DNA of 27,666 nucleotides, from IMG/VR virus record IMGVR_UViG_3300024265_000179, positions 1-27,666 of that record; one strand, 5' to 3'. Positions within the stretch are counted from its first letter, which is position 1. Each line of letters opens with the position of its first letter. Made by a program: the position numbers and the translations under genes. Shown in pieces: positions 5,185 to 21,723 of this stretch. Below the pieces are notes generated by a model. The model was given only the letters and a program-made list of their open reading frames with translations. It had not been told where the DNA came from and searched no databases. This DNA comes from a virus.

Positions 5185-5223
5185 ATTTCTATTTTTTAGG
5201 TTTATACTTCATTAATAGTTAGT

Positions 5224-5407: not shown

Positions 5408-5527
5408 TTATTTAGTTTTAACAATTCGCTTTTCACTTAAAATAGATTCAATAAATTTATTAAAAGAAATATATGTTACACTTCCCTTTTTTGTTTTGTT
5501 CTTTTTAGCCTTTTTTTTCTTTTCCAT
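5408..5527 (-). CDS. Tiny basic protein (39 aa), first gene after leader RNA B
   Basis: ATG at 5527 opens a frame whose N-terminus is nearly all Lys (MEKKKKAKKNKTKK), then VTYISFNKFIESIL. It stops just before the next ATG. It starts ~23 bases after the U-tract of the structured leader at 5550-5735, so it is the first gene controlled by that leader. Homopolymer A runs make the reading sensitive to sequencing errors. The function is unknown. Confidence 0.5.
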   Translation of the reverse strand: MEKKKKAKKNKTKKGSVTYISFNKFIESILSEKRIVKTK

Positions 5528-5537
5528 CTTATTTTAG

Positions 5538-5565
5538 TTATTAAAAAGAAAAACATTCCTGCCTT
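5538..5565 (-). repeat. 28-nt inverted repeat, copy 1
   Basis: The sequence is the exact reverse complement of 14538-14565 over 28 bases. It contains the 3' half of the leader's closing helix (CAGGAATG) and the U-rich tract TTTTTCTTTTT. Identity ends sharply on both sides. Confidence 0.9.
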
Positions 5566-5735
5566 AGCAGGGAATAATAAATAGATAATTACAAATCATC
5601 CTTGGATCTACGGATTAGGGTGTCGATCCCCTCTCCTTGGTCATTTGCATACCGCCCCAGACAATCTTACTACCACTTCAGGTAATTACTAATTATTCTA
5701 TTAGCTTGTATTAGCTTCATCAGGAATGCTTTTCT
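5550..5735 (-). ncRNA. Structured leader RNA B (leftward), shares ends with leader A
   Basis: Read on the minus strand, the RNA starts near AGAAAAGCATTCCTGAT and ends GGCAGGAATGTTTTTC. GCATTCCTG (5729-5721) pairs with CAGGAATGT near 5561-5553, closing a ~170-nt loop. Inside, TAATTAC (5688-5682) pairs with GTAATTA (5592-5586). A local hairpin CCTGC-taag-GCAGG (5571-5558) just before the U tract is a standard terminator and uses the same bases as the closing helix, so the two are mutually exclusive. The core has a CCAAGG repeat and GGGG/CCCC runs, unlike the AT-rich surroundings, and no ORF. The first gene starts at 5527. It does not match a riboswitch class I know. Confidence 0.6.
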
Positions 5736-5739
5736 ATGT

Positions 5740-5767
5740 TAAAGAACGTTTCTTAAATAACTTCAAA
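5740..5767 (-). promoter_or_regulatory. Promoter of leader RNA B
   Basis: On the minus strand TTTG (5767-5764), 16 bases, GTTCTTTA (5747-5740), then the RNA start about 7-10 bases later. Leader A has the same variant (TTTG-N17-GTTCTTTG). The box overlaps the 3' end of the 5753-5926 gene. Confidence 0.5.
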
Positions 5768-5926
5768 TGAATGAAAGTTTTTTCTACCATTAGCAAAATC
5801 ACTATTTGTTAACGCTTCGGCTAATTTATTAAAATCGCCTCGAAACTTGTTTTCACCCTCATCTTGAGGTTTCACTTTTCTAAAACTCTTTTTTTCTTCG
5901 TCTTCATAAATTATTAGTGTTTTCAT
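5753..5926 (-). CDS. Small hypothetical protein (57 aa)
   Basis: ATG 5926 gives MKTLIIYEDEEKKSF…, charged throughout, ending NGRKNFHSFEVI. It is not recognised. Its 3' end carries the promoter of leader RNA B. Confidence 0.5.
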   Translation of the reverse strand: MKTLIIYEDEEKKSFRKVKPQDEGENKFRGDFNKLAEALTNSDFANGRKNFHSFEVI

Positions 5927-5955
5927 TGTATTGATTTTTAGTTATTAAATTATAT

Positions 5956-6150
5956 TCAACTTTTATCATGTATAATTATCATTCCACTAACTATGTCAAA
6001 TTTATTACCAAAAGGAAATTCTATAATAGTTCTGGTTTTTGTTACTGTTATATAAAGTTCGGTATTTTTTTTTGTATCTAAAAGTAATTTTGTTTTACTT
6101 TTTTCATGTGCTAAATTTTCAAATTTATGTAATGCTACTGTTGTTGGCAT
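5956..6150 (-). CDS. Small hypothetical protein (64 aa)
   Basis: From ATG 6150 the product begins MPTTVALHKFENLAHEK and has a beta-rich middle (TELYITVTKTRTIIEFPFG). The longer form starts at a TTG (6177) and seems less likely. The function is unknown. It lies between 6203-6415 and 5753-5926 in the leftward series. Confidence 0.45.
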   Translation of the reverse strand: MPTTVALHKFENLAHEKSKTKLLLDTKKNTELYITVTKTRTIIEFPFGNKFDIVSGMIIIHDKS

Positions 6151-6202
6151 GATTTTTATTTTAAATTTACATATCAAACTTTTATTATCTTGTGTACATT
6201 AT

Positions 6203-6415
6203 TCACCCTTTTTGTATAGGTTGTATTTCATAAATATCATAATTTTTAGTATCATATCCATATTGTAACATAACTTCGAATGCTTTAGCAAGTTCTTCAG
6301 GTGCAGTTTTTAAGTCATCTACTTGTACAATTAATCCTGGTATACTTTCTAAATATACACACCATGTATTATTATCATCTTTAATACAAATCATTTTAAA
6401 ATCTTCTTTTTTCAT
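6203..6415 (-). CDS. Small HicB-like fold protein
   Basis: The product (70 aa) has the pattern NTWCVYLESIPGLIVQV followed by an acidic, Ala-rich helix (APEELAKAFEVML). This resembles the HicB/DUF1902 partial RNase-H-like fold ('W.v.…iPGl…eA…l'). No HicA partner is adjacent, so a toxin-antitoxin role is not supported. It is the first gene after the large structured region at 6436-6808. The family call is tentative. Confidence 0.45.
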   Translation of the reverse strand: MKKEDFKMICIKDDNNTWCVYLESIPGLIVQVDDLKTAPEELAKAFEVMLQYGYDTKNYDIYEIQPIQKG

Positions 6416-6435
6416 TTTTCTTAGTTTTAGTTATT

Positions 6436-6808
6436 AAACAAAAGCAACTTTTCTTCTCTACTCACTATAGAAAATTAACTACTAAATAATATTAATAGTT
6501 CAGAGAATTAACTTTGCCTACTCACTTCATTTAAGAAGTTGCCAATCATTACCTGGCATTTACAAAACATTTTAGCATTAAATATGTTGTGAGTGCTTAT
6601 AAAGACAAAAGTTGCCAAAGTCAAATATAAGGCTATGCTAAAATTATTAATTCTCACGCAATGTTTTGTACCTTTTTTGATGTTTATGATCCGGTCTGAA
6701 ATCATATGACTGCGTTTATATGTACGATTGCGATTAAGAAAAACAAAGCCGAAAGCGAACACGCAATCATAATTCTCGGTAGATTCGAAGCCTACCTTCA
6801 TTCGGCTT
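6436..6808 (-). ncRNA. Large structured RNA region (leader or stand-alone RNA C)
   Basis: No credible gene occupies this stretch; the ORF at 6508-6801 is doubtful. Minus-strand reading starts with CAAAGCCGAA (6810-6801), which pairs perfectly with TTCGGCTTTG (6753-6744) and is followed by TTTTTCTT. Inside this first domain GGTAG/CTACC (6778-6782/6792-6796) encloses a TTCGAAT loop. Further on, 6561-6578 is complementary to 6635-6643 plus 6660-6670, an 18-nt helix with a 16-nt side insertion. GCAACTTTT (6444-6452) is complementary to 6607-6615, and ACTCAC repeats (6461, 6519) to GTGAGT near 6590. So many long complementary pairs point to an RNA of ~370 nt, or a ~70-nt RNA plus a structured leader for 6203-6415. 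Confidence 0.5.
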
Positions 6809-6810
6809 TG

Positions 6811-6841
6811 CTAAGATACAAAAATATTTTTAATTATCAAA
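6811..6841 (-). promoter_or_regulatory. Promoter of structured RNA C
   Basis: On the minus strand TTTG (6841-6838), 19 bases, TATCTTAG (6818-6811); one mismatch to TAnnTTTG. A start ~7 bases on falls at or near the first bases of the closing helix (6810-6801). Confidence 0.5.
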
Positions 6842-6872
6842 GAACTTATGCTTTTATTATAATTATCTAAAA

Positions 6873-7049
6873 TTATTTTCTAAAATTCCATGGTTGGTTC
6901 GGATCATCAACGTCATATGGAGGTTTTTTATAAAATTTTATTTTAAATCCAATCGTAGGAAATGGTAAAAAATAAAGGGTTCGATTATCCCTATCTAAAT
7001 AAAATCCGATCCAAAAATCATACCATGCAAATATTAATTTTACTTTCAT
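6873..7049 (-). CDS. Small phage protein with WYDFWIGFY motif (58 aa)
   Basis: ATG 7049 gives MKVKLIFAWYDFWIGFYLD…, then a TLYFLPFPTIGFKIKF strand pair and a Pro/Asp-rich tail ending PWNFRK. The 'WYDFWxGxYxDRxxRxLYxxPxP' pattern is one I associate with a widespread small phage protein of unknown function. Evidence for coding: aromatic-rich conserved motif and full-length frame. Confidence 0.6.
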   Translation of the reverse strand: MKVKLIFAWYDFWIGFYLDRDNRTLYFLPFPTIGFKIKFYKKPPYDVDDPNQPWNFRK

Positions 7050-7092
7050 AAGTACATCTGTTTATTTAATGTAATATCAAATTGAAGGCTAG

Positions 7093-7323
7093 TTAAGATT
7101 CTTCTTCTGCTTCAGCTTCATAAATAATTCCATACCAGAAATTACCCTCCATCATTTTTTCATAAATTCCCCATTCTTCAATTTCGTAGCCTATTGTGCT
7201 AGTAGTTTTAATCTGTAAATCGCATTCTTCATATGCTTTTTTTATTGCTTCTTCTTCTGTATTTGCCTCTACATCAATTAAAACCCTAGCATTAAGGGGT
7301 AGTTCTACATAATATTTTTTCAT
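7093..7323 (-). CDS. Small hypothetical protein with VEAxTEEEAIKKA motif (76 aa)
   Basis: The N-terminal half (MKKYYVELPLNARVLIDVEANTEEEAIKKAYE) is a strand followed by an acidic helix, a layout shared by PcfM/DpnD-like and other small phage proteins. The C-terminus is Glu-rich. The function is unknown. It lies downstream of the methyltransferase gene. Confidence 0.55.
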   Translation of the reverse strand: MKKYYVELPLNARVLIDVEANTEEEAIKKAYEECDLQIKTTSTIGYEIEEWGIYEKMMEGNFWYGIIYEAEAEEES

Positions 7324-7356
7324 AACATCTATTTTAAGTGAATTATATTTAGTTAA

Positions 7357-8334
7357 TTAAGACTTAAATAATTGTTTTTGTGAATCTTTATATTTATTTT
7401 CAGTCTTTTTTAAAGTTCTTGCAGCCTGTTTAAAATAGCTTTCTTTAAGTTCTATTCCTATTCCTTTGCGTCCCATAGAAACAGCGCCATGGACTTCAGA
7501 TCCAATACCCATAAATGGAGTTAAAACTGTATCGCCGATATTAGAATATAAGATAATTGAACGTTCTATAATATCCAAATGTAACGGGCAAACATGCCTT
7601 TCGTCGTCTTCATCCCTTCCTTCTTTGTATTCTAACATTCTTTTAGCATTAATGTCTCGCCAATCGCTAGACGCATATCTTCTCCAAATCCACTGGCTTA
7701 ATCTATTTGTCTTGTCATCTTTATAATTAATATATTTATTATGCAAATATTCGTATTCTTTTTTATCAATATCTGAAAATAAATCAAAATCTCCTATATA
7801 CCTAGTTAAACCAACTGGATGTTGTATCGGTTCTGTATTTTCGCCTTTTTTCTTGAAAAATAAAACATAATCAGCTAATGCGCCTCTTGTTTTACTTGAA
7901 TCAGCTATTAATTGACCATGCATTAATTTACGATCTCTTGACCTTATTGCAACTCTTAATGGTTCTTTCCATATGTTTTTCCTATCCCAGTAAACAAAAC
8001 CATTATTTTGATGTAATCTTATAATATCTCCTGGAAAGTCTTTCAAACCATTTTGAGCATTGCCTGGAATATCCATACAATGAACAGCAACTAAGCGTCC
8101 AGGCATTAATATTCGTTCAACTTCTTTTATTATAAAAGTATAATGTTTTAAGAATTCATTATAATTTACATTGTTTCCTAAATCATGAATTGAACTTGAA
8201 TAAACATATAAATCATCAAAAGGCGGTGAATAAATTACAAAACCAGTTTTATTGCTTGGGAACTCTTGTAATTTTTGACAACTATCACCTTGATAGATTG
8301 CATATTCATCTGTAATTATTTCTTTTAAATCCAT
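7357..8334 (-). CDS. DNA methyltransferase (N4-cytosine/N6-adenine, beta-type motif order)
   Basis: The catalytic motif IV is YSPPF at residues 35-39, near the N-terminus; SPPF is typical of N4-cytosine DNA methyltransferases. The SAM-binding motif I is near the C-terminus (TPFMGIGSEV, about residue 270), followed by GIGIEL. This order (catalytic first, SAM motif last) is that of the beta class. The usual DPFxGxG has Thr in place of Asp here, which is unusual. The protein would methylate phage DNA, possibly to escape host restriction; no cognate endonuclease is recognised nearby. The gene overlaps the SNF2-like helicase by 10 bases, a pairing often seen in phage genomes. Confidence 0.85.
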   Translation of the reverse strand: MDLKEIITDEYAIYQGDSCQKLQEFPSNKTGFVIYSPPFDDLYVYSSSIHDLGNNVNYNEFLKHYTFIIKEVERILMPGRLVAVHCMDIPGNAQNGLKDFPGDIIRLHQNNGFVYWDRKNIWKEPLRVAIRSRDRKLMHGQLIADSSKTRGALADYVLFFKKKGENTEPIQHPVGLTRYIGDFDLFSDIDKKEYEYLHNKYINYKDDKTNRLSQWIWRRYASSDWRDINAKRMLEYKEGRDEDDERHVCPLHLDIIERSIILYSNIGDTVLTPFMGIGSEVHGAVSMGRKGIGIELKESYFKQAARTLKKTENKYKDSQKQLFKS

Positions 8335-9677
8335 TCCGGTAAAGTTATTTTTTGGTTAATACTTTCAATTGCTTGTATATTTAATTCATTACCCATATGT
8401 TCAACTAATTTTGTAAACATATTATTTGCTTGTTTTACTTTACGTTTATAATTTTGGTAAACTCCAAGTTCGCCTTCTGTTGTAACCATATCAATATAAA
8501 CTTTTCTTTTTTGCCCAAATCTGTAAAATCTTCTTACAGCCTGATAATATTGTTCATAAGAATGTGAAGGATAAAAAACAGCATGGTTACAATGCTGCCA
8601 GTTCAATCCCCATGCTCCAATTTTTGGTTTAGTTATTAGTTTTTTAATTTCACCTGAACTAAAAGCAATTAATTTTTCTTCTTTACTTTCTAAAGAGTCC
8701 GAACCGCTAATTTGAACAGCTTCAGGAATGAGTTGGTTTAAATAATCAGTTTCATAATTATAATGACCCCAAATAACAGAAAAATCATGCCCTTCGATTA
8801 ATTCAGCTACTTTTTCAGAACGTTCTTTTAAGGTGCTTTTTCTTTCTTCTCTTTGTTCTCTTAATGTTTTGGCCGGTCTAATAAATAATTGTCCTGGTAG
8901 CGGTTTGGTTACTTCTAAAATATGGTCTTTTTCAATAAGTTCCGGAAGTATAAAATTTTCATCAGAAAACCCAAAATCAGAAGGCTTTCTCATGGCTCTT
9001 GACCAACTTGCAACCCAACGCCAAAAATCGTTAACTGCATGTGCTTTTAATTCCCATTTTGATTTTGACCATTGGGGGTTTTTATCATTTGATGTATCTC
9101 TAAAAAATTGAGTTAACATATCCATATAAGCAAGTTCCCCTAGAGCTTCTGAGCTTGTTCCTAATTCAATATAATCATTCGGGCTGGGTGTTGCTGTCCA
9201 TAAGCTGCGATACGGCATTTTAGCCATAAATTGAACAACCATTTTTTTTGTTTTACCAACGCTGTTTTTAATTGCGGAACTTTCATCTAACACACAACCA
9301 ATATAATCATTAGAATCAAATTTTTCAATTTGTTGGTAATTTGTAATAGTAATTTTCCCTTTCGGTTTACCGTCTCTTGACCTCTTTAATTCAATACCAA
9401 ACTTTTCACCTTCTTTAATTGTTTGTTGTGAAACTGCTAATGGCGCAAATATTAAAACATTTTTGTTAGTTTTTTCAACAATATTTTGAGCCCAAACTAA
9501 TTCCATTATAGTTTTCCCTGTTCCGGTGTCTGAAAATATACCGGAACGACCTTTATTTAAACTCCATTCCGTTAAATATTTTTGAAAGTCAAACAAATAA
9601 TCAGGCATAAATAATGGTTTGAACCCAAAAAGCCCAGATAATTGTTTTTTCTTTTCTAAAAATGTTTCGTAATTCAT
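8325..9677 (-). CDS. SNF2-like DEAD/DEAH-box helicase
   Basis: The 450-residue product has helicase superfamily 2 motifs: Walker A SDTGTGKT (49-56), a strand LIFAPLAV (motif Ia), LDESSAIK (130-137, a DExx box with DESS), TATPSP (161-166, motif III) and a C-terminal motif VI QAVRRFYRFGQKR (about 385-397). The RxxRxGQ-type motif VI is typical of SNF2-like phage helicases. It probably acts on double-stranded DNA during replication, recombination or modification. It overlaps the methyltransferase start, so the two are probably made together. A promoter-like pair lies just before its start (9682-9713), giving a near-leaderless transcript. Confidence 0.85.
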   Translation of the reverse strand: MNYETFLEKKKQLSGLFGFKPLFMPDYLFDFQKYLTEWSLNKGRSGIFSDTGTGKTIMELVWAQNIVEKTNKNVLIFAPLAVSQQTIKEGEKFGIELKRSRDGKPKGKITITNYQQIEKFDSNDYIGCVLDESSAIKNSVGKTKKMVVQFMAKMPYRSLWTATPSPNDYIELGTSSEALGELAYMDMLTQFFRDTSNDKNPQWSKSKWELKAHAVNDFWRWVASWSRAMRKPSDFGFSDENFILPELIEKDHILEVTKPLPGQLFIRPAKTLREQREERKSTLKERSEKVAELIEGHDFSVIWGHYNYETDYLNQLIPEAVQISGSDSLESKEEKLIAFSSGEIKKLITKPKIGAWGLNWQHCNHAVFYPSHSYEQYYQAVRRFYRFGQKRKVYIDMVTTEGELGVYQNYKRKVKQANNMFTKLVEHMGNELNIQAIESINQKITLPEWI

Positions 9678-9681
9678 ACCA

Positions 9682-9713
9682 CAATATTAAAATATACTAA
9701 TTTAATTTACAAA
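9682..9713 (-). promoter_or_regulatory. Possible internal promoter before the helicase gene
   Basis: On the minus strand TTTG (9713-9710), 20 bases, TAATATTG (9689-9682). The start would fall at about the helicase ATG (9677). One mismatch to the TAnnTTTG pattern. The 74-base gap before the helicase holds only a 14-codon ORF. Confidence 0.4.
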
Positions 9714-9751
9714 TTATTTAGTCCGATATATAACGGTGCTTGCGAAGACAT

Positions 9752-10165
9752 TTATTTTAGGTTAATTTCAAAATTCTTTTCTTTTGCAAGCCTACGGTTC
9801 TCTTTCCGGTAATGCTTAATCAGTTCGGTTAATTCAGGTTCAGTAAATTTCATGGTTGTATTTTTTAACATTTCAAGTTCATCAACTGCCGCTATTCCAT
9901 GTTTTTGAATCATTCTTTCTCTATATAATATCATATCGTCTTTATTGTTGCATCCTTTATGCCCGGCATTTACATTCATTTCGTTCCATGTAGTAGCCTT
10001 ATGCCCACGTTTATTATAATGGCAAGCAACCGCATTTAAACAGTGCAGGGGCGCACCACAATAACAACAAACACCATTACCATAATCATCTGTTTGCATC
10101 ATTCTTTGATGCTGTGAAAAAACATCATGTAATAATTCTACTTTTATTTTAAATTCTTTGCTCAT
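9752..10165 (-). CDS. ninG: NinG/Rap family recombination protein
   Basis: The central part matches the lambda NinG (Rap) family: CCYCGAP (33-39) and HCLNAVACHY (41-50) give a Cys/His metal site. Next come RGHKATTWNEMNVN (53-66; family 'RxxxxxRxdExNv') and GCNNKDD with a later YRERMIQKHG (81-90). The family is linked to branched-DNA processing in lambda-type recombination. Length (137 aa) is a little short for lambda NinG (~200) but complete for the domain. The neighbours (YqaJ nuclease, OB-like protein) support a recombination module. Confidence 0.8.
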   Translation of the reverse strand: MSKEFKIKVELLHDVFSQHQRMMQTDDYGNGVCCYCGAPLHCLNAVACHYNKRGHKATTWNEMNVNAGHKGCNNKDDMILYRERMIQKHGIAAVDELEMLKNTTMKFTEPELTELIKHYRKENRRLAKEKNFEINLK

Positions 10166-10320
10166 TTTAAATAAAGTGTTATGCTTTTCATCGGTAATTT
10201 CTTGGTAAACGGGATGCCCTTTTTATTCCAAACCTTTTGCATTTTACGATTTGATTCGAATCTTACCACTTCGCCTTTTTTGATTAGTTTTATTACTTTC
10301 TTTTTATCTGATTTATTCAT
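10162..10320 (-). CDS. Small basic protein (52 aa)
   Basis: ATG 10320 overlaps the stop of the YopX gene (CTATGA) and the TGA overlaps the NinG start (ATGA), so it fits exactly between them. The product is basic (MNKSDKKKVIKLIKKGEVVRF) with FESNRKMQKVW and no recognised domain. A nucleic-acid contact role is possible. Confidence 0.6.
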   Translation of the reverse strand: MNKSDKKKVIKLIKKGEVVRFESNRKMQKVWNKKGIPFTKKLPMKSITLYLK

Positions 10321-10736
10321 AGTTTAAAATTACTTTCATGAATATTCCCGACAATTGTAAATGGTTTTTGTAATGAATTAAATTGCATAAAATTTTGCCA
10401 ACTCATTTTTTTACCCTTCCAATAAAAGCAAAAACAAGAAACCTCATCATTAAATTTTATTAACCAGAGCCTCCCAACATTATCTTCAACCCAATCACCT
10501 TCATAAATTTCTTTGTCGTTTTTATCTTTTAGCCCGGTGAATTGCATTAAATGATTATTTTTTAAATCTTCTGGGTAAGTTGAATCATGCTTATAAATAG
10601 TGTGTCCATCCAGTCTATCATAAATAGCCCAATCAACAGCATTTTCAGCATTAAAAAATGAGATATAAACGCCCTCTTTAATATAAATCATTTCATTATT
10701 AACCCAAACCCGATATTTTATTTTTCTATTTTTCAT
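10317..10736 (-). CDS. YopX family protein
   Basis: The product starts with KIKYRVWVNNEMIY and contains LMQFTGLKDKNDKEIYEGDWV (about 83-103) and a C-terminal FTIVGNIHES, the three signatures of the YopX family (Pfam PF09643), found in Bacillus and Bacteroidota phages and prophages. The function is unknown; the family is a small beta-barrel. Length 139 residues is typical. Confidence 0.9.
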   Translation of the reverse strand: MKNRKIKYRVWVNNEMIYIKEGVYISFFNAENAVDWAIYDRLDGHTIYKHDSTYPEDLKNNHLMQFTGLKDKNDKEIYEGDWVEDNVGRLWLIKFNDEVSCFCFYWKGKKMSWQNFMQFNSLQKPFTIVGNIHESNFKL

Positions 10737-10740
10737 TACA

Positions 10741-11226
10741 TTATAGTTTAATCAAAAATTTCATATATTCTTGCTCAATTGTTTCAATAATATCGTCATA
10801 TTGAGTACCTTTAAAGAACTTACCAATTACATTTTCATAGATGTATGGTAATTGTTCTTTGATATATTCTTTAAATCTTGGATCTGTCATATTCGAAAAA
10901 GAAATGCTTTCATATTGAACCATTTTCGTACCGTCTTGAAATGAATAAAGTACTTTATATTGACCTTTTAAGTGCTTTAACCATAGATAAAATTTCCCTG
11001 AAGATACTACATTTGTAAATTCTTTCGGCAAATAATCATATATGAAGTTAAGCAAACTAAACCAGGCACGGTGAAAATTAATATCCCTTGGTGTGATTTC
11101 TTTGAAACAAAGCATATCATTAGATTTTGTTTGTTCGTTTAATTCCACTGCCTTTTCATTATATGGAACAAAACCGTTTGCAACATTTACAACTTCAATT
11201 ATATTTTCGTAATCGGTGTCTTTCAT
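10741..11226 (-). CDS. DUF1367-like phage protein
   Basis: The middle contains TPRDINFHRAWFSLLNFIYDYLP, resembling the 'R.i.fHrkfFalln.a.d' core of DUF1367 phage proteins. The rest has SFSNMTDPRFKEYIKEQLPYIYENVIG-type helical segments. DUF1367 members sit in replication/recombination regions of lambdoid phages and have no proven activity. It overlaps the short broken ORF upstream (ATGA). Confidence 0.6.
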   Translation of the reverse strand: MKDTDYENIIEVVNVANGFVPYNEKAVELNEQTKSNDMLCFKEITPRDINFHRAWFSLLNFIYDYLPKEFTNVVSSGKFYLWLKHLKGQYKVLYSFQDGTKMVQYESISFSNMTDPRFKEYIKEQLPYIYENVIGKFFKGTQYDDIIETIEQEYMKFLIKL

Positions 11227-11324
11227 GTGAACTTATCTTTAATCCAATTAATTACAAAATATCCTACAATAGTAAGAAACGCAATTACAGCTATTTAGAT
11301 TAGTATTATTAATATTGGGTTCAT
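11223..11324 (-). pseudogene. Tiny membrane peptide interrupted by an in-frame TAA
   Basis: ATG 11324 begins MNPILIILI, then TAA, then the same frame continues with a hydrophobic helix (IAVIAFLTIVGYFVINWI, then KDKFT) ending in TGA that overlaps the next ATG (ATGA). The spacing to the upstream stop and downstream start is that of a real gene. So the 33-codon gene has probably been broken by a point mutation, or the base call is wrong, or translation restarts at an ATA/ATT codon after the stop. Confidence 0.5.
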
Positions 11325-11325
11325 T

Positions 11326-11616
11326 TCATTGTTTTTTTAGCCATTGCATGAATCCTTTAAAAGTTGGGTCGTTATCAATTATTATTGTATCCGTTTGTTG
11401 TTTAAATCCAATCCGATCCCAATAATAGTAAGTATTTATATATATGCTATCATTCTGTAACTCCTTTTCGTAGAGGTCGTAATAAGATAACAGCCAAAAA
11501 GTGAAATGGTTATTTAGATAAGCTCTATTTTTAGCATGAGTAAAATAAATAGAATCTGCATGATTTTGCGAATACCCAACACTAGCAAAGAATAATAGTA
11601 TTAATATTGTTTTCAT
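11326..11616 (-). CDS. Small exported protein with signal peptide
   Basis: MKTILILLFFASVGYSQ is a clear signal peptide (cleavage near residue 17). The mature ~80 residues are rich in Tyr, Trp and Phe (FWLLSYYDLYEKEL, YYYWDRIGF) with no recognised domain. It lies among replication genes expressed leftward, where exported products are unexpected; superinfection exclusion or envelope change is a reasonable guess, not shown by the sequence. Confidence 0.6.
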   Translation of the reverse strand: MKTILILLFFASVGYSQNHADSIYFTHAKNRAYLNNHFTFWLLSYYDLYEKELQNDSIYINTYYYWDRIGFKQQTDTIIIDNDPTFKGFMQWLKKQ

Positions 11617-11620
11617 AGTT

Positions 11621-12304
11621 CTAATTTATTAACCGGTTTAAATTTTTCTTTAATTTGACTTTGGTAAATTTTTCAAGCTCACTTATTAATTCAAGTATCT
11701 TTTCTTTTGGTGGTTCTGGTAGATTATTATTCCCTGAATCTGCACCAATATTCACATAAACGGGTCTGATAAAATCTATCATTGAAATAAATTCTTGAAA
11801 ATCGAAATCTAATATTGGTTCAATAGTTACAGCTACCTTACAATATTCCAATGAATTTATAACACCTAAATATTTAGTTCTAGTTATTGGTTTAGGTGAA
11901 TTATCCATTATTTTATTATAATGTCTATTGGTTTCTATTGTCGTGCATAATATAGAATTTTTAGAAAATTGAAAAATATTTGCGTTTTCAGGATTTTTTG
12001 TTTGATAAAAGATTGTGCTTTCAAACTTATTATAGAAGTCAACTATTTTTTTTATTAATCCATATGGCACGTCATCAGCAAACAAATCATTACAAGTACA
12101 AACAAATATAACGTCCTTCTCCTTAAATTTCTTTTTAAATTCGCTTTCTACTAATCTCGGTTCTCCAGAATATTTTGCCTTTAATAAAGGAAATCTTTTT
12201 TTCAATCCTTTTACATAGCAATATGAACAATTATGCAAACACTCTCCGGCTAAAGGATTTGTTTTTTTCGTTACCCAGTCGTACATATTTGATTTATTTA
12301 ACAT
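11621..12304 (-). CDS. Radical SAM protein, phage Gp37/Gp68 (DUF5131)-like
   Basis: C22-x3-C26-x2-C29 (CLHNCSYCY) is the Fe4S4-binding motif of radical SAM enzymes, placed after YDWVTKKTNPLAG as in the phage Gp37/Gp68 family (DUF5131), whose members start with a similar W…NP…G…C segment. Later segments CTCNDLFAD, FYQTKNP and VTIEPILDF match the family's conserved blocks. The substrate is unknown; related proteins lie near DNA-modification or ParB-like genes in phages, and a DNA methyltransferase and a ParB-like gene are present here. The 227-residue length is typical. Confidence 0.75.
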   Translation of the reverse strand: MLNKSNMYDWVTKKTNPLAGECLHNCSYCYVKGLKKRFPLLKAKYSGEPRLVESEFKKKFKEKDVIFVCTCNDLFADDVPYGLIKKIVDFYNKFESTIFYQTKNPENANIFQFSKNSILCTTIETNRHYNKIMDNSPKPITRTKYLGVINSLEYCKVAVTIEPILDFDFQEFISMIDFIRPVYVNIGADSGNNNLPEPPKEKILELISELEKFTKVKLKKNLNRLIN

Positions 12305-12344
12305 AGTTATATTTTATTGTAAGTTACTAATTTTTAGTGTGATA

Positions 12345-12533
12345 TCAAAGTTTAAAATCGTCTTTCATGTTTCCGGTTATTTCCTGGATAAAAATATAAA
12401 ATCCCTTCATTGCTTCTTGAGCTTTGTCAAGATTATTAATGCAGTTATCCATTGTTTCTTCTAAAGTCTTTTCTTTAGGTTGCAACGGCTTTGTAATCTC
12501 TTCAAATACTGGGTGTAATTTTGAATTTTTCAT
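12345..12533 (-). CDS. Small hypothetical protein (62 aa)
   Basis: A short acidic/basic helical protein (LEETMDNCINNLDKAQEAMKG) beginning MKNSKLHPVFEEITKPL. It is unrecognised. It starts one base after the YqaJ nuclease gene, so it is probably in the same operon. Confidence 0.5.
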   Translation of the reverse strand: MKNSKLHPVFEEITKPLQPKEKTLEETMDNCINNLDKAQEAMKGFYIFIQEITGNMKDDFKL

Positions 12534-12534
12534 A

Positions 12535-13146
12535 TTAATTTATTTCATAATTATTATAAAATTCTAATTCTTTTTTTATAAGCTCAATAGTGCTTTCTAG
12601 ACGTTCTTTTATTTGTTCATGCATTTCTTTATCAGGAAGTACACGAATAATAAATGGTTTCATGTCTGGATAGTAACTCATGAAATCACACCATTTCAAG
12701 CTTGTGACAAACAACTGCCCTTGCACCTGCCATTTATATTCATTTGGTAATTTGTTAGCTTTAATATAACTTAAATGTGTTTTACGTAACGGGCATTTAA
12801 TTTCAAGCAACCCATTAAACATTATACCATCAGGACTAATTCCAATCCAATCTTCAAATCGAAAGTGGGGAGTTATAAACCCTATTTGGTCAACTTCTAT
12901 ATTATAAATAGATTCATATGCTTTGCGTGCCTCGGGTTCTAAATCAATGCCACGCTGCATTATTTCATTAGTATAAGTTTCTTCTTTTGTTTCGGTTATT
13001 ATTTCGCCGACAATATCAGAAATTAAGTCCTTATAACCTTTTGTGCTTTCACCCATCATTAGGGATGCAAAGCGCGTTCCTGTAATTTTACCACAACGCA
13101 AATCAAACCACGCATTGCTTTGTTGTTCTACATTATATGTTATCAT
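12535..13146 (-). CDS. YqaJ-type (lambda exonuclease-like) recombination nuclease
   Basis: The product (203 aa) has the YqaJ/lambda-exonuclease PD-(D/E)XK core. It starts with QQSNAWFDLRCGKITGTRFA (9-28), the family's 'R.g.iTaS.fa' segment. Glu70 follows in GIDLEPEAR, then GISPDG (102-107) with Asp106, and LEIKCP (114-119) with Glu115 and Lys117. Such enzymes degrade one strand of duplex DNA and work with a single-strand annealing or binding protein. The next gene downstream in the operon direction is small; the upstream gene (13143-13550) is OB-like and overlaps it by 4 bases, a likely partner. Confidence 0.9.
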   Translation of the reverse strand: MITYNVEQQSNAWFDLRCGKITGTRFASLMMGESTKGYKDLISDIVGEIITETKEETYTNEIMQRGIDLEPEARKAYESIYNIEVDQIGFITPHFRFEDWIGISPDGIMFNGLLEIKCPLRKTHLSYIKANKLPNEYKWQVQGQLFVTSLKWCDFMSYYPDMKPFIIRVLPDKEMHEQIKERLESTIELIKKELEFYNNYEIN

Positions 13147-13550
13147 TTTTCTATACTTTTATCTAAATCAACCATTAAGCTAAACATTTTTTTTGTATAA
13201 TCTGCTAAATCTTTTAATTCAATTTTACCGGCAACACACAAATCTTTTGAGTATGCCATTGCAAAACCAGCATAACGGCTTTGTTCTTTCTTGACAGCTC
13301 TTGAATAATTAGATTGACCTTGATTATAAATGGGCTTAATGATAAGATATTTTTCTCCACTTTCCCACTTTTTTTCAATCTCATTAAATTCAGCTTCTTT
13401 ATCTTTTACAAATTTAGCCTGATCTCTTTTTTTACTGGAATAATAACCCCACTTATCATTATAATAAACTTTGAATTGATAAAGCATGCTTTTATCATAA
13501 GTAGATGGATATTCTTTTTCAAATGCAACATCTGTAATTTGTGCTTTCAT
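13143..13550 (-). CDS. Possible single-stranded DNA-binding or annealing partner of YqaJ
   Basis: The N-terminal part has alternating strand-like stretches (LYQFKVYYNDKWGYYSS, KYLIIKPIYNQG) with aromatic and basic residues, as in OB-fold ssDNA-binding proteins. The C-terminal part (RYAGFAMAYSKDLCVAG) is helical and resembles the tail segment of some phage SSB-like proteins. It overlaps the YqaJ gene by 4 bases, where an annealing or SSB protein is common. I did not identify a specific family; the call is inference. Confidence 0.4.
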   Translation of the reverse strand: MKAQITDVAFEKEYPSTYDKSMLYQFKVYYNDKWGYYSSKKRDQAKFVKDKEAEFNEIEKKWESGEKYLIIKPIYNQGQSNYSRAVKKEQSRYAGFAMAYSKDLCVAGKIELKDLADYTKKMFSLMVDLDKSIEK

Positions 13551-13711
13551 TTTAGTTTAGTTTTATAATCAATAATACTATTTACAGTTTTTAAATTATT
13601 ATCCAAAGCATTTATTAATTTACTAGGCTTGCATCCTTTTCTAAGCTGCCTATTTCTTAACTTTATAAGCATCATTAATATTTGTATAGCTTCAGCTAAA
13701 AGGTCATTCAT
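13547..13711 (-). CDS. Small helical protein (54 aa)
   Basis: ATG 13711 overlaps the end of the 13704-13913 gene by 8 bases and its TGA overlaps the next ATG (ATGA). The product begins MNDLLAEAIQILMMLIKL and continues basic (RNRQLRKGCKPSK), all helix-forming. It fits the otherwise unexplained gap. The function is unknown. Confidence 0.55.
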   Translation of the reverse strand: MNDLLAEAIQILMMLIKLRNRQLRKGCKPSKLINALDNNLKTVNSIIDYKTKLK

Positions 13712-13913
13712 TTTCTGCAATTTTATCGTAAACCAAATGAGTAATATCTTCTTTTATCATATGAGTAATATTTTTGTCACCAAGATAAACAGCGTCAATT
13801 GTAAGCGTGCTTTCCGGTTGCGAAACTCCATCGCCTGAATCAATTGACATCGTATATTCAATATCTAATGTTTTACCACAATATTCTACTTGTACTGTAT
13901 TTTGCTTTTCCAT
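13704..13913 (-). CDS. Small hypothetical protein (69 aa)
   Basis: The product (MEKQNTVQVEYCGKTLDIEY…) looks like a small beta-rich protein with a helical end (THMIKEDITHLVYDK). It is unrecognised. It sits directly after DUF7352 in the leftward operon. Confidence 0.55.
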   Translation of the reverse strand: MEKQNTVQVEYCGKTLDIEYTMSIDSGDGVSQPESTLTIDAVYLGDKNITHMIKEDITHLVYDKIAENE

Positions 13914-13915
13914 AA

Positions 13916-14197
13916 TTATACTCCTATATATTCAAAAACATGAAACACTAAAGAACCATCTTGTAGTTGATAAGTTCCAATATATTTTCTATTTGTTCCC
14001 ATATCATAGTTTACAGGGTGTCCGGTTCCAAAAATCTCAAAGTATCTTATTTCTTTTTCCGATGTTGAATTAACCAAAGCCCATAAACAAAGTATTTCTT
14101 TTTGTACTTGAGCGGTTAATATCTCTGCACCAATAGGCATTTCAATTTTTTGATTATCTTTAATTGATAATTCAAATTTCCAGATCGTTTTTTCCAT
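13916..14197 (-). CDS. DUF7352-like protein, first gene of the leftward operon
   Basis: From ATG 14197 the product begins MEKTIWKFELSIKDNQKIEM and contains LTAQVQKEILCLWALV and YFEIFGTGHPV, the pattern of small phage proteins classed as DUF7352 ('IWKyeL…tieMP.ga.iL.vq.q…lWalv…r.i.i.GTGhpi'). The longer frame starting with TTG at 14227 is unlikely because the promoter overlaps it. The function is unknown. The family name is from memory. Confidence 0.65.
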   Translation of the reverse strand: MEKTIWKFELSIKDNQKIEMPIGAEILTAQVQKEILCLWALVNSTSEKEIRYFEIFGTGHPVNYDMGTNRKYIGTYQLQDGSLVFHVFEYIGV

Positions 14198-14213
14198 AAC
14201 TTTTAATTTGTTA

Positions 14214-14245
14214 TAAAAGTATATCAAGTGAAGTTAACTCGCAAA
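14214..14245 (-). promoter_or_regulatory. Promoter of the leftward operon
   Basis: On the minus strand TTTG (14245-14242), 20 bases, TACTTTTA (14221-14214); the start ~14207 gives a ~10-nt leader before ATG 14197. Confidence 0.5.
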
Positions 14246-14359
14246 TAAAAGCGATACGAATAATACAGGTTTGTCATCGACATAAAACGGGATTTGGCTG
14301 TTTAATATCGACGCAATGAACGTTATCAAAAGTGTTAATTTTCTTGTAGTATATTGTTT

Positions 14360-14388
14360 TTTGCGTACTTTTACTTTAAAGTTCTTTG
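14360..14388 (+). promoter_or_regulatory. Promoter of leader RNA A
   Basis: TTTG (14360-14363), 17 bases, GTTCTTTG (14381-14388), then GAAAAGCATTCCTG. The minus-strand leader B has the same variant boxes and nearly the same spacing. The rest of 14246-14359 has no gene; it holds ATCGAC repeats (near 14277 and 14310) that could be operator sites. Confidence 0.5.
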
Positions 14389-14390
14389 AA

Positions 14391-14560
14391 AAGCATTCCT
14401 GATAATAAATTTAATTAATATATCAAGAGCAATACTTGATTGAACGGCGAGTTGAAACCTAAGTGTTATTGGCTGCATATGGACTCAGGGTAATAAACCA
14501 ATTGTTAATTACTGTTTCTTGATTAAGGAATCAAGAGAAGGCAGGAATGTTTTTCTTTTT
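14391..14560 (+). ncRNA. Structured leader RNA A (rightward), shares ends with leader B
   Basis: GCATTCCTG (14393-14401) pairs with CAGGAATGT (14542-14550), closing ~140 nt, and a U-rich tract TTTTTCTTTTT follows. Inner hairpins: ATCAAG/CTTGAT (14422-14427/14435-14440), GTAAT-a-AAC/GTT-a-ATTAC (14490-14512) and TCTTGATT/AATCAAGA (14517-14524/14529-14536). The first and last hairpins carry the same complementary words, so their arms could swap partners. The core shows no ORF. The first gene starts at 14587. Ends match leader B on the opposite strand, but the cores do not. No known RNA class is recognised. Confidence 0.6.
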
Positions 14561-14565
14561 AATAA
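14538..14565 (+). repeat. 28-nt inverted repeat, copy 2
   Basis: Exact reverse complement of 5538-5565 over 28 bases, ~9 kb apart. It includes the 3' half of the closing helix and the U tract of leader A. The 5' ends also repeat in inverted form (GAAAAGCATTCCTGAT, 14388-14403, with 5734-5719). Confidence 0.9.
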
Positions 14566-14586: not shown

Positions 14587-14799
14587 ATGGACACAAAAAA
14601 GATAAAAGCCCAGCTTAACGAATTGCTTGATATAGTTGAGCAAATTGAAAAAGGCAAGTCAAGCAAGCAATGGTTCATGATTAACCGGGATAATGTAGAA
14701 TACCAAGATAGGCGGGACTTCGTACAAATAGCCAATGATTACACTAAAAGAATAAGGGCTAATGAAAAGCGGTATCATCAATTAATAAGCGAATTATGA
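14587..14799 (+). CDS. Small helical protein (70 aa), first gene after leader RNA A
   Basis: The product (MDTKKIKAQLNELLDIVEQIEKGK…) is mostly helical and charged, suggesting a small coiled-coil. It is unrecognised. It starts 27 bases after the leader's U tract and overlaps the next gene by 4 bases. Confidence 0.55.
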   Translation: MDTKKIKAQLNELLDIVEQIEKGKSSKQWFMINRDNVEYQDRRDFVQIANDYTKRIRANEKRYHQLISEL

Positions 14800-20802: not shown

Positions 20803-21297
20803 ATGAGAATAGGACATTCAACAAATGGTACATCTTGTGAATATGAAATGCAAGATAAATTGAAAGAATGGTTAAAAGAAAAGGGCTTGATATTTATTGA
20901 TGAAATGTTTATTCCTGAAGTAAGCAGGAGGCCTGATTTTTTAGTTTTTAAGCCTGGTAATGGATTAATAAACATTGAAGCAAAATGTAACGATCATAGC
21001 GAAATGATAAAACAACTTGGTGATAATGCCAAGTATTGTAATTATTCATTTGCATTTATACCTGATTATAGTATTACCTCTTTGGAAACCAAAAGAGAAT
21101 TAGAACAAAATAGATTTGGGTTAATAATTTATAACTATCAAAAAGGAATAATAACTGAAGCATTAGAAGCTCATCATAATTTTAAAATTGATAGAAAAAT
21201 GCAAAAAAATATATCCGATAGGATAAAAATTGAGCTAATAAAAAGAAAACAAAAAGAATATATTGATACGCAACAAGATTTATTTAATGAAGTATAA
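20803..21297 (+). CDS. PD-(D/E)XK endonuclease-like protein
   Basis: SRRPDFLVFK (41-50) and GLINIEAKCND (54-64) provide Asp45 and Glu59-x-Lys61, the PD…ExK pattern, in a ~164-aa protein. The N-terminal helix (YEMQDKLKEWLKEKG) resembles the first helix of VRR-NUC or MmcB-like nucleases. The C-terminus is basic and helical. A second such protein lies at 17663. It may be a repair or restriction-type nuclease. Confidence 0.65.
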   Translation: MRIGHSTNGTSCEYEMQDKLKEWLKEKGLIFIDEMFIPEVSRRPDFLVFKPGNGLINIEAKCNDHSEMIKQLGDNAKYCNYSFAFIPDYSITSLETKRELEQNRFGLIIYNYQKGIITEALEAHHNFKIDRKMQKNISDRIKIELIKRKQKEYIDTQQDLFNEV

Positions 21298-21312
21298 ACC
21301 TAAAAAATAGAA

Positions 21313-21723
21313 ATGACACTACAAAGGATTCAAAAAATAATAGGTGACTACCTAATGCTGAAGCCAAGGCATATACAAAAGGACACAAACGAGCATGAAA
21401 ATGTATTAGCCCGGCAATTGTGCTGTTACTATGCAAAAAAATTAACTAGTAAAAAAAACCGGGAAATATCAGAATTTTTCAGCGACAGGACACCGTCAAT
21501 AGTGCCTTATTCGTTTGCTAAAATATTAGATTACATAGACACCGATAGGACAATAAGAAAATACGTTGATGATTTAAACCATTTATTTGATCCGGATTAC
21601 CAGGATATAAAGAGCTTAAAAGAAAAATCATTATTAAATGTTAAAATACTAAAAGAGCTGTATAAAACAGGGCATTTAGAATTATTTCAAGTATTATGTT
21701 TAATAAAAAGCCATGAATTATGA
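21313..21723 (+). CDS. DnaA C-terminal domain-like DNA-binding protein
   Basis: Residues 28-75 (ENVLARQLCCYYAKKLT…ISEFFSDRTPSIVPYSFAKIL) match the DnaA domain IV helix-turn-helix pattern ('AR.ia.yl.r.lT..s…Ig..fg.RdhstV..a…i'). The DnaA-type DRT-S-V segment is present. Without an ATPase domain, it probably binds the phage origin or a DnaA-box-like site. Such stand-alone proteins are known in phages. The N- and C-terminal parts are unassigned. Confidence 0.65.
   Translation: MTLQRIQKIIGDYLMLKPRHIQKDTNEHENVLARQLCCYYAKKLTSKKNREISEFFSDRTPSIVPYSFAKILDYIDTDRTIRKYVDDLNHLFDPDYQDIKSLKEKSLLNVKILKELYKTGHLELFQVLCLIKSHEL

Follow-up and report, generated by a model that had tools for sequence, protein, structure and literature searches.

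In phage lambda, boxA lies in the opposed, near-identical leader sites nutL and nutR, and in phage HK022, opposed operons carry the paired cis-acting leader RNAs putL and putR, which are compact, fold into two hairpins, and have no boxA. For ribosomal RNA (rRNA) operons (rrn), it has been proposed, and partly tested, that boxA stays tethered to NusB while the nascent 16S rRNA loops out, which promotes the leader–trailer helix (PMC10250234). In the suhB leader, an example of Nus autoregulation, boxA in the 5' untranslated region (UTR) serves as a regulatory site (PMC5725501). Here, we analyzed 27,666 nucleotides (nt) of viral DNA, positions 1 to 27,666 of the IMG/VR record IMGVR_UViG_3300024265_000179 (hereafter, the window), in which each strand carries one of a pair of elements, A (5747-5538, minus strand) and B (14381-14565, plus strand), with exact 16-nt 5' ends and 28-nt 3' ends in common. 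Our preferred reading, held tentatively, is that A and B would be matched boxA-led leaders in which a long-range terminator helix gates read-through into opposed operons.

The order boxA, leader arm, enclosed RNA, and trailer arm is that of the rrn leader–trailer system, and the boxA of B has the letters of Bacteroidota rrn. However, A and B enclose 140-159 nt of unrelated sequence rather than rRNA, and their trailer arm continues into a U tract, after which comes a start codon. As in nutL and nutR, boxA occurs in opposed, near-identical leader sites, but A and B have no boxB hairpin, no N-like gene was recognized in the ORFs scanned, and the helix of A and B is long-range and terminator-like. 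The paired cis-acting leaders of opposed operons recall putL and putR, from which A and B differ in form. Likewise, the regulatory boxA of suhB differs in placement, since in A and B boxA is ~200 nt away, with the closing helix in between.

Paired ends and closing helix of A and B

The segments at 5538-5565 and 14538-14565 are exact 28-nt inverted repeats that extend to 31 nt at 97% identity, and GAAAAGCATTCCTGAT is found at 14388-14403 (plus strand) and 5734-5719 (minus strand). By an estimate from length alone, chance does not account for an exact inverted repeat of 28 nt within 27.7 kilobases (kb). Element A, read on the minus strand, starts with GTTCTTTAACATAGAAAAGCATTCCTGAT and ends with GGCAGGAATGTTTTTCTTTTTAATAACTA; element B, on the plus strand, starts with GTTCTTTGAAAAGCATTCCTGAT and ends with AAGGCAGGAATGTTTTTCTTTTTAATAATTA. 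In A, AGAAAAGCATTCCTG (5735-5721) pairs with CAGGAATGTTTTTCT (5561-5547) to form a closing helix, P1, of 15 base pairs (bp) with one G-U pair, and in B, the helix search and folding pair GAAAAGCATTCCTG (14388-14401) with CAGGAATGTTTTTC (14542-14555) over 14 bp, again with one G-U. The 3' arm runs on into a U tract in both copies (CAGGAATGTTTTTCTTTTT; 5543-5561, minus strand, in A and 14542-14560, plus strand, in B). The next ATG follows after 15 nt in A (ATG 5527) and 26 nt in B (ATG 14587), opening reading frames (ORFs) of 39 and 70 amino acids, respectively, that belong to no family (5408-5527, minus strand, and 14587-14799, plus strand). The initial annotation had described the inverted 28-nt repeats, the recurring 16-nt part, the pairing of the 5' and 3' ends ahead of a U-rich tract, and the differing cores between common ends, all of which were reproduced here, the repeats exactly.

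When all long-range helices with a U tract behind them were ranked over the whole window on both strands, A came first, B second, and a further element, C, third. Helices scoring at least 19, a level matching that of A and B, arise in 3 of 30 Markov-1 controls, so P1 by itself is no proof; the proof is the exact 28-nt repeat together with its partner in both copies. The whole elements are more stable than 200 shuffles (z = -3.2 for A and -3.7 for B), the pair probability of P1 is 0.998, and loss of the 5' arm costs 14-17 kcal/mol. As in an intrinsic terminator, a stable helix is directly followed by a U tract, although the 140-159 nt inside P1 depart from the 3-8 nt of an intrinsic-terminator loop. 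As in rrn, a leader–trailer helix, here of 14-15 bp, comes after boxA.

The cores of A (159 nt; 5562-5720, minus strand) and B (140 nt; 14402-14541, plus strand) are unrelated, with no common word above 7 nt on the same strand. Tested alone, they show no extra stability over shuffles (z = -0.26 and -0.68), in contrast to the whole elements, which makes P1 the signal. The cores look like loop filler rather than aptamers, and the suggestion that they are structured and functional was not sustained. The two hairpin alternatives that had been predicted along with it are both present. In A (the 5538 copy), a weak terminator-like hairpin of 5 bp, CCTGC-TAAG-GCAGG (5571-5558), stands before the same U tract and is a local alternative to P1 for the 3' arm, so that use of this arm is mutually exclusive; B has no such alternative. 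In the core of B (the 14388 copy), two hairpins, ATCAAG/CTTGAT and TTTCTTGATT/AATCAAGAGA, can swap arms, with exchange between CTTGATT/AATCAAG and ATCAAGAG/TTCTTGAT. Neither arrangement is a clear terminator/antiterminator choice.

These alternatives, together with the leader position, would suit attenuators of a riboswitch-like kind, with each core as the ligand sensor and either P1 or the 3' arm as the expression platform. We regard this as highly improbable: the cores are no more stable than shuffles, relatives yielded no homologous cores, and the two alternatives in A share one U tract at their end, which means that neither is an antiterminator. In addition, a search of the elements against Rfam returned no family or riboswitch at or above the gathering threshold, which agrees with the earlier failure to match them to a riboswitch; a riboswitch or other known-RNA identity was rejected for A and B for lack of an Rfam match.

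boxA, promoters, and element C

The GTTCTTT motifs common to A and B are, to judge from their letters and surroundings, more convincing as boxA, the site for NusB/S10, than as -10 boxes. The boxA of B, GTTCTTTGAAAA, is letter-identical to boxA in the rRNA leaders of Bacteroidota genomes (L510, L511, and L526). Its GTTCTTTGAAA (14381-14391, plus strand) runs on into AA, and GTTCTTTGAAA(A) matches an element 119-229 nt before 16S rRNA, over 11 letters in L510 and 12 letters in L511 and L526. GTTC[T/A]TTGA was present in 13 of 28 rRNA leaders inspected directly; an rrn boxA pattern with fixed spacing gave only two matches over 149 genomes, probably because the spacing differs between genomes. The boxA of A, GTTCTTTAACA (5737-5747, minus strand), fits GYTCTTTAANA, the boxA consensus applied to gammaproteobacteria (PMC5725501).

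GYTCTTTRAMA matches the window twice, at A and B only, and two or more matches also occur in 10 of 100 shuffles. The expected number of boxA matches in the 25 nt that precede any one P1 is 0.00011. Three GTTCTTTRA sites in the window are non-coding, and they stand immediately upstream of the three best P1 helices. The distance from GTTCTTT to P1 is 6 nt longer in A than in B, and the retention of both motifs despite this difference indicates that boxA and P1 are separate parts. Across 851 kb of related-phage DNA, the only boxA sites outside ORFs are those of A and B and a single one in Maribacter phage Panino. In Panino (L356:528-1290), an rRNA-type boxA, GTTCATTGAAAGTATTGACA, heads ~700 nt of non-coding look, where the annotated short ORFs may be spurious.

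The initial annotation had taken GTTCTTT as part of a matching promoter, TTTG-N16/17-GTTCTTT. TTTG ... TAnnTTTG is the reported consensus for the housekeeping sigma factor of Bacteroides (PMC7366714), and the proposed -10 boxes, GTTCTTTA in A and GTTCTTTG in B, both lack its TA; the promoter is therefore weak in both copies, and the motif fits boxA better. Upstream of B, there is a weak CTTG-N19-TACTTTTA that ends 20 nt before P1, so boxA would lie at the extreme 5' end. Element A is preceded by a gene read in the same direction.

Among the three elements, C alone has a good promoter of the TTTG/TAnnTTTG type. It spans 71 nt (6742-6812, minus strand; z = -1.65), and its helix and U tract, AGCAAAGCCGAA/TTCGGCTTTGTT, differ in letters from those of A and B. 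A near-boxA, GTTCTTTGA (6845-6837), and the promoter-like TTTG-N19-TATCTTAG lie directly 5' of it (6811-6845, minus strand). An ORF that overlaps C (6508-6801) may be spurious. Since the promoter of C is positioned for an RNA start at P1, it lends weight to the view that A and B are small-RNA genes, with an RNA that starts at the P1 5' arm, P1 as its own terminator, and cores that act in trans, the downstream ORFs being expressed from other transcripts or by leaky read-through. P1 and the U tract would also set the 3' end, and 170-195 nt is a normal size for a small RNA. We nevertheless consider this rather unlikely, because A and B lack a good TAnnTTTG at the right place, both stand 15-26 nt before a start codon, and the stability of their cores is unremarkable. 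Moreover, pairing of the cores with each other, with C, and with transcripts of the window was examined, and none was convincing. A trans-acting small-RNA pair is possible; A and B themselves offer no positive evidence for it.

Phage context, relatives, and kissing-loop leaders

The genes of the window are of the tailed-phage type. Those read leftward serve recombination (a RecE-like exonuclease, NinB/Orf, a SNF2-type helicase, and a DNA methyltransferase), and those read rightward serve replication (primase/helicase), followed by the terminase. The relatives of the terminase and primase are for the most part in phages of Bacteroidota, and the host, as far as sequence relationships tell, is likely a member of this phylum. 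A second contig of the same phage (L101/L186) overlaps the window at 100% and extends the genome; a search of it found no additional copy of A or B. At the protein level, the helicase and methyltransferase have neighbors at 73% in L175 and the terminase at 49% in OP947161, both mosaic relatives without the surroundings of A and B.

Opposed, near-identical sites with boxA, with recombination genes leftward and replication genes rightward, would fit an N- or HK022-like antitermination pair, an analog of nutL/nutR or putL/putR, whose ends load a processive antiterminator for later terminators. This is very unlikely, given that no boxB-like small hairpin follows boxA, no N-like protein was found in the ORFs scanned, A serves only ~1.2 kb of small ORFs, and P1 is itself terminator-like. 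A lambda-type nut site was rejected, as the P1 5' arm comes directly after boxA in place of a boxB and scans against PHROGs and Pfam, which covered part of the ORFs, detected no antiterminator protein.

The window holds a second exact inverted repeat, 31 nt long (5185-5215 and 21284-21314), which is a leader segment common to the leftward and rightward arms. Each copy ends at an ORF start codon (5184, minus strand, and 21313, plus strand), and 5'-UTRs resembling TTTAATAACTAAA recur in this phage. Such a repeat at two start codons of the same two arms implies that leader pieces do move and, with the recurrent 5'-UTRs, speaks for the view that A and B are leader or terminator modules copied between operons by recent recombination and kept as ordinary terminators or 5'-UTRs with no regulation. 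Copying of this kind is quite unlikely as the full account, since the adjacent core should travel too and identity instead stops sharply on either side of two different cores. In addition, boxA is kept though its spacing to P1 differs, and the perfect pairing of both arms is maintained.

Pattern searches over 2.9 million viral contigs found no contig with the same paired ends beyond the window's own copies. A scan for GCATTCCTG-N134..164-CAGGAATG returned 98 stretches, with boxA and U tract together only in these two copies, and none of the 66 stretches with boxA and GCATTCC had the partner arm and U tract. At least 118 stretches matched boxA-N-TTTTTCTTTTT, and among the matches listed, none had a helix score near those of A and B; likewise, none of the 50 stretches with CAGGAATGTTTTTCTTT had the partner 5' arm nearby. 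When both elements were compared with phage records by blastn, the matches were at chance level only.

Scanning relatives for P1, a U tract, and a start codon brought up a different leader that recurs in other, mostly Bacteroidota, phages. It consists of a promoter-proximal hairpin (H1), an A-rich linker, and a terminator-like hairpin that immediately precedes an ORF, in several cases a SNF2-type helicase gene. The H1 loop and the interior of the terminator hairpin are complementary to each other over 7-15 bp. Several, though not all, have a TTG-N17-20-TAnnTTTG promoter. In Flavobacterium phage hattifnatt9-1 (L358), such kissing-loop leaders occur at 14313-14445 (at 14387, GTGAGACG/CGTCTCAC) and, before the helicase gene, at 9336-9460 (at 9409, GCTTCGAC/GTCGAAGC). 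Others are at L359:23902-23737 (minus strand, 15 nt), L357:20317-20262 (minus strand, GTGGAGG/CCTCCAC), L107:48408-48571, L185:1856-2026, L355:29502, L395:9932, L399:2251, L402:4101, L417:2442, and in L499-L503. Three leaders of this type with TATAAT-type promoters lie in one contig (L182:8332, 9932, and 16714), which suggests that the class extends beyond Bacteroidota phages.

The descriptor is loose, with 154 matches in real and 97 in shuffled sequence; the best real scores are 38-49, against a shuffled maximum of 37, and most of the best have a promoter or a following ORF. Across four Flavobacterium phage variants, 30 of 30 pairs are kept and six are changed on both sides, three of these in the loop–loop helix, a count from only four related sequences on which the structure itself was drawn. 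An Rfam search of the kissing-loop loci scanned gave no family match. The leader of phi19:1 (L499) equals that of Nekkels_1 (L504) over 44 of 44 nt at the promoter end and resembles hattifnatt (L358) at 85% of 46 nt in the 3' region, with a different core, so that identical ends with a divergent core echo the pattern of A and B. Like A and B, these leaders put a terminator-like helix and U tract directly before a start codon; unlike A, B, and C, they have a 5' hairpin loop that pairs with the terminator loop. Membership of A, B, and C was rejected, as their best upstream-to-core pairing is at shuffle level (p = 0.39, 0.62, and 0.48). Given its recurrence and compensatory changes, the kissing-loop leader could represent a previously undescribed class of regulatory RNA in phages, one that lends itself to direct testing in cultured phages of Flavobacterium and Cellulophaga.

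Candidate gating of the opposed operons by a boxA-led helix

For A and B as boxA-led leaders, we infer a course from transcription of the elements through NusB–S10 binding, tethering, and termination to regulated bypass. While the leader is transcribed, the host NusB–S10 complex would catch boxA (GTTCTTTRAMA) and keep the neighboring P1 5' arm close to where the RNA leaves the polymerase, with the core of 140-159 nt looped out. The emerging 3' arm would then pair with the 5' arm into the 14-15 bp helix, which has UUUUUCUUUUU immediately after it. If no further factor acted, or if the antitermination complex were in the wrong state, this helix would act as an intrinsic terminator and release a leader RNA of ~170-195 nt; its bypass would allow expression of the ORF that lies 15-26 nt farther on. 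As only the ends are needed for this mechanism, they would stay identical while the cores drift.

Several points weigh against this mechanism. The main weakness is that P1 has no covariation support, as no homologue with the same ends was found, and A and B, being related copies, count as one observation. Loops of intrinsic terminators are normally short, and 140-159 nt is far beyond them. By themselves, rRNA-type Nus complexes are not known to get past intrinsic terminators; the mechanism would require a factor from the phage, and no candidate was recognized in the ORFs scanned. No clear promoter belongs to element A itself, whose transcription may come from the gene upstream, and the GTTCTTTG of C also serves as a -33 element, so that the motif could still be read as part of a promoter. 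The paired attenuation control of both operons put forward in the initial annotation is supported as to the opposed leaders, identical ends, and terminator-like closing helix and is not supported as to the promoter and structured cores. An attenuation or antitermination role at both operons is plausible.

A literature search found no report on boxA-dependent control in phages of Bacteroidota, and such control is poorly charted beyond rRNA operons and lambdoid phages. It is unlikely, yet worth stating, that the boxA tether and leader–trailer scheme of rRNA has been recast here as a long-range terminator, one arm of which boxA would keep at the polymerase so that the helix could close over any loop of 140-190 nt, which would form identical, core-independent switches at two opposed operons. 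If true, such long-range termination with a boxA tether would have no counterpart among the known kinds of terminator. More broadly, A and B may control two opposed gene clusters through borrowed host machinery; if the mechanism holds, it would show how a terminator can be built across a loop whose sequence is arbitrary, and such phages would pirate the rRNA transcription machinery.

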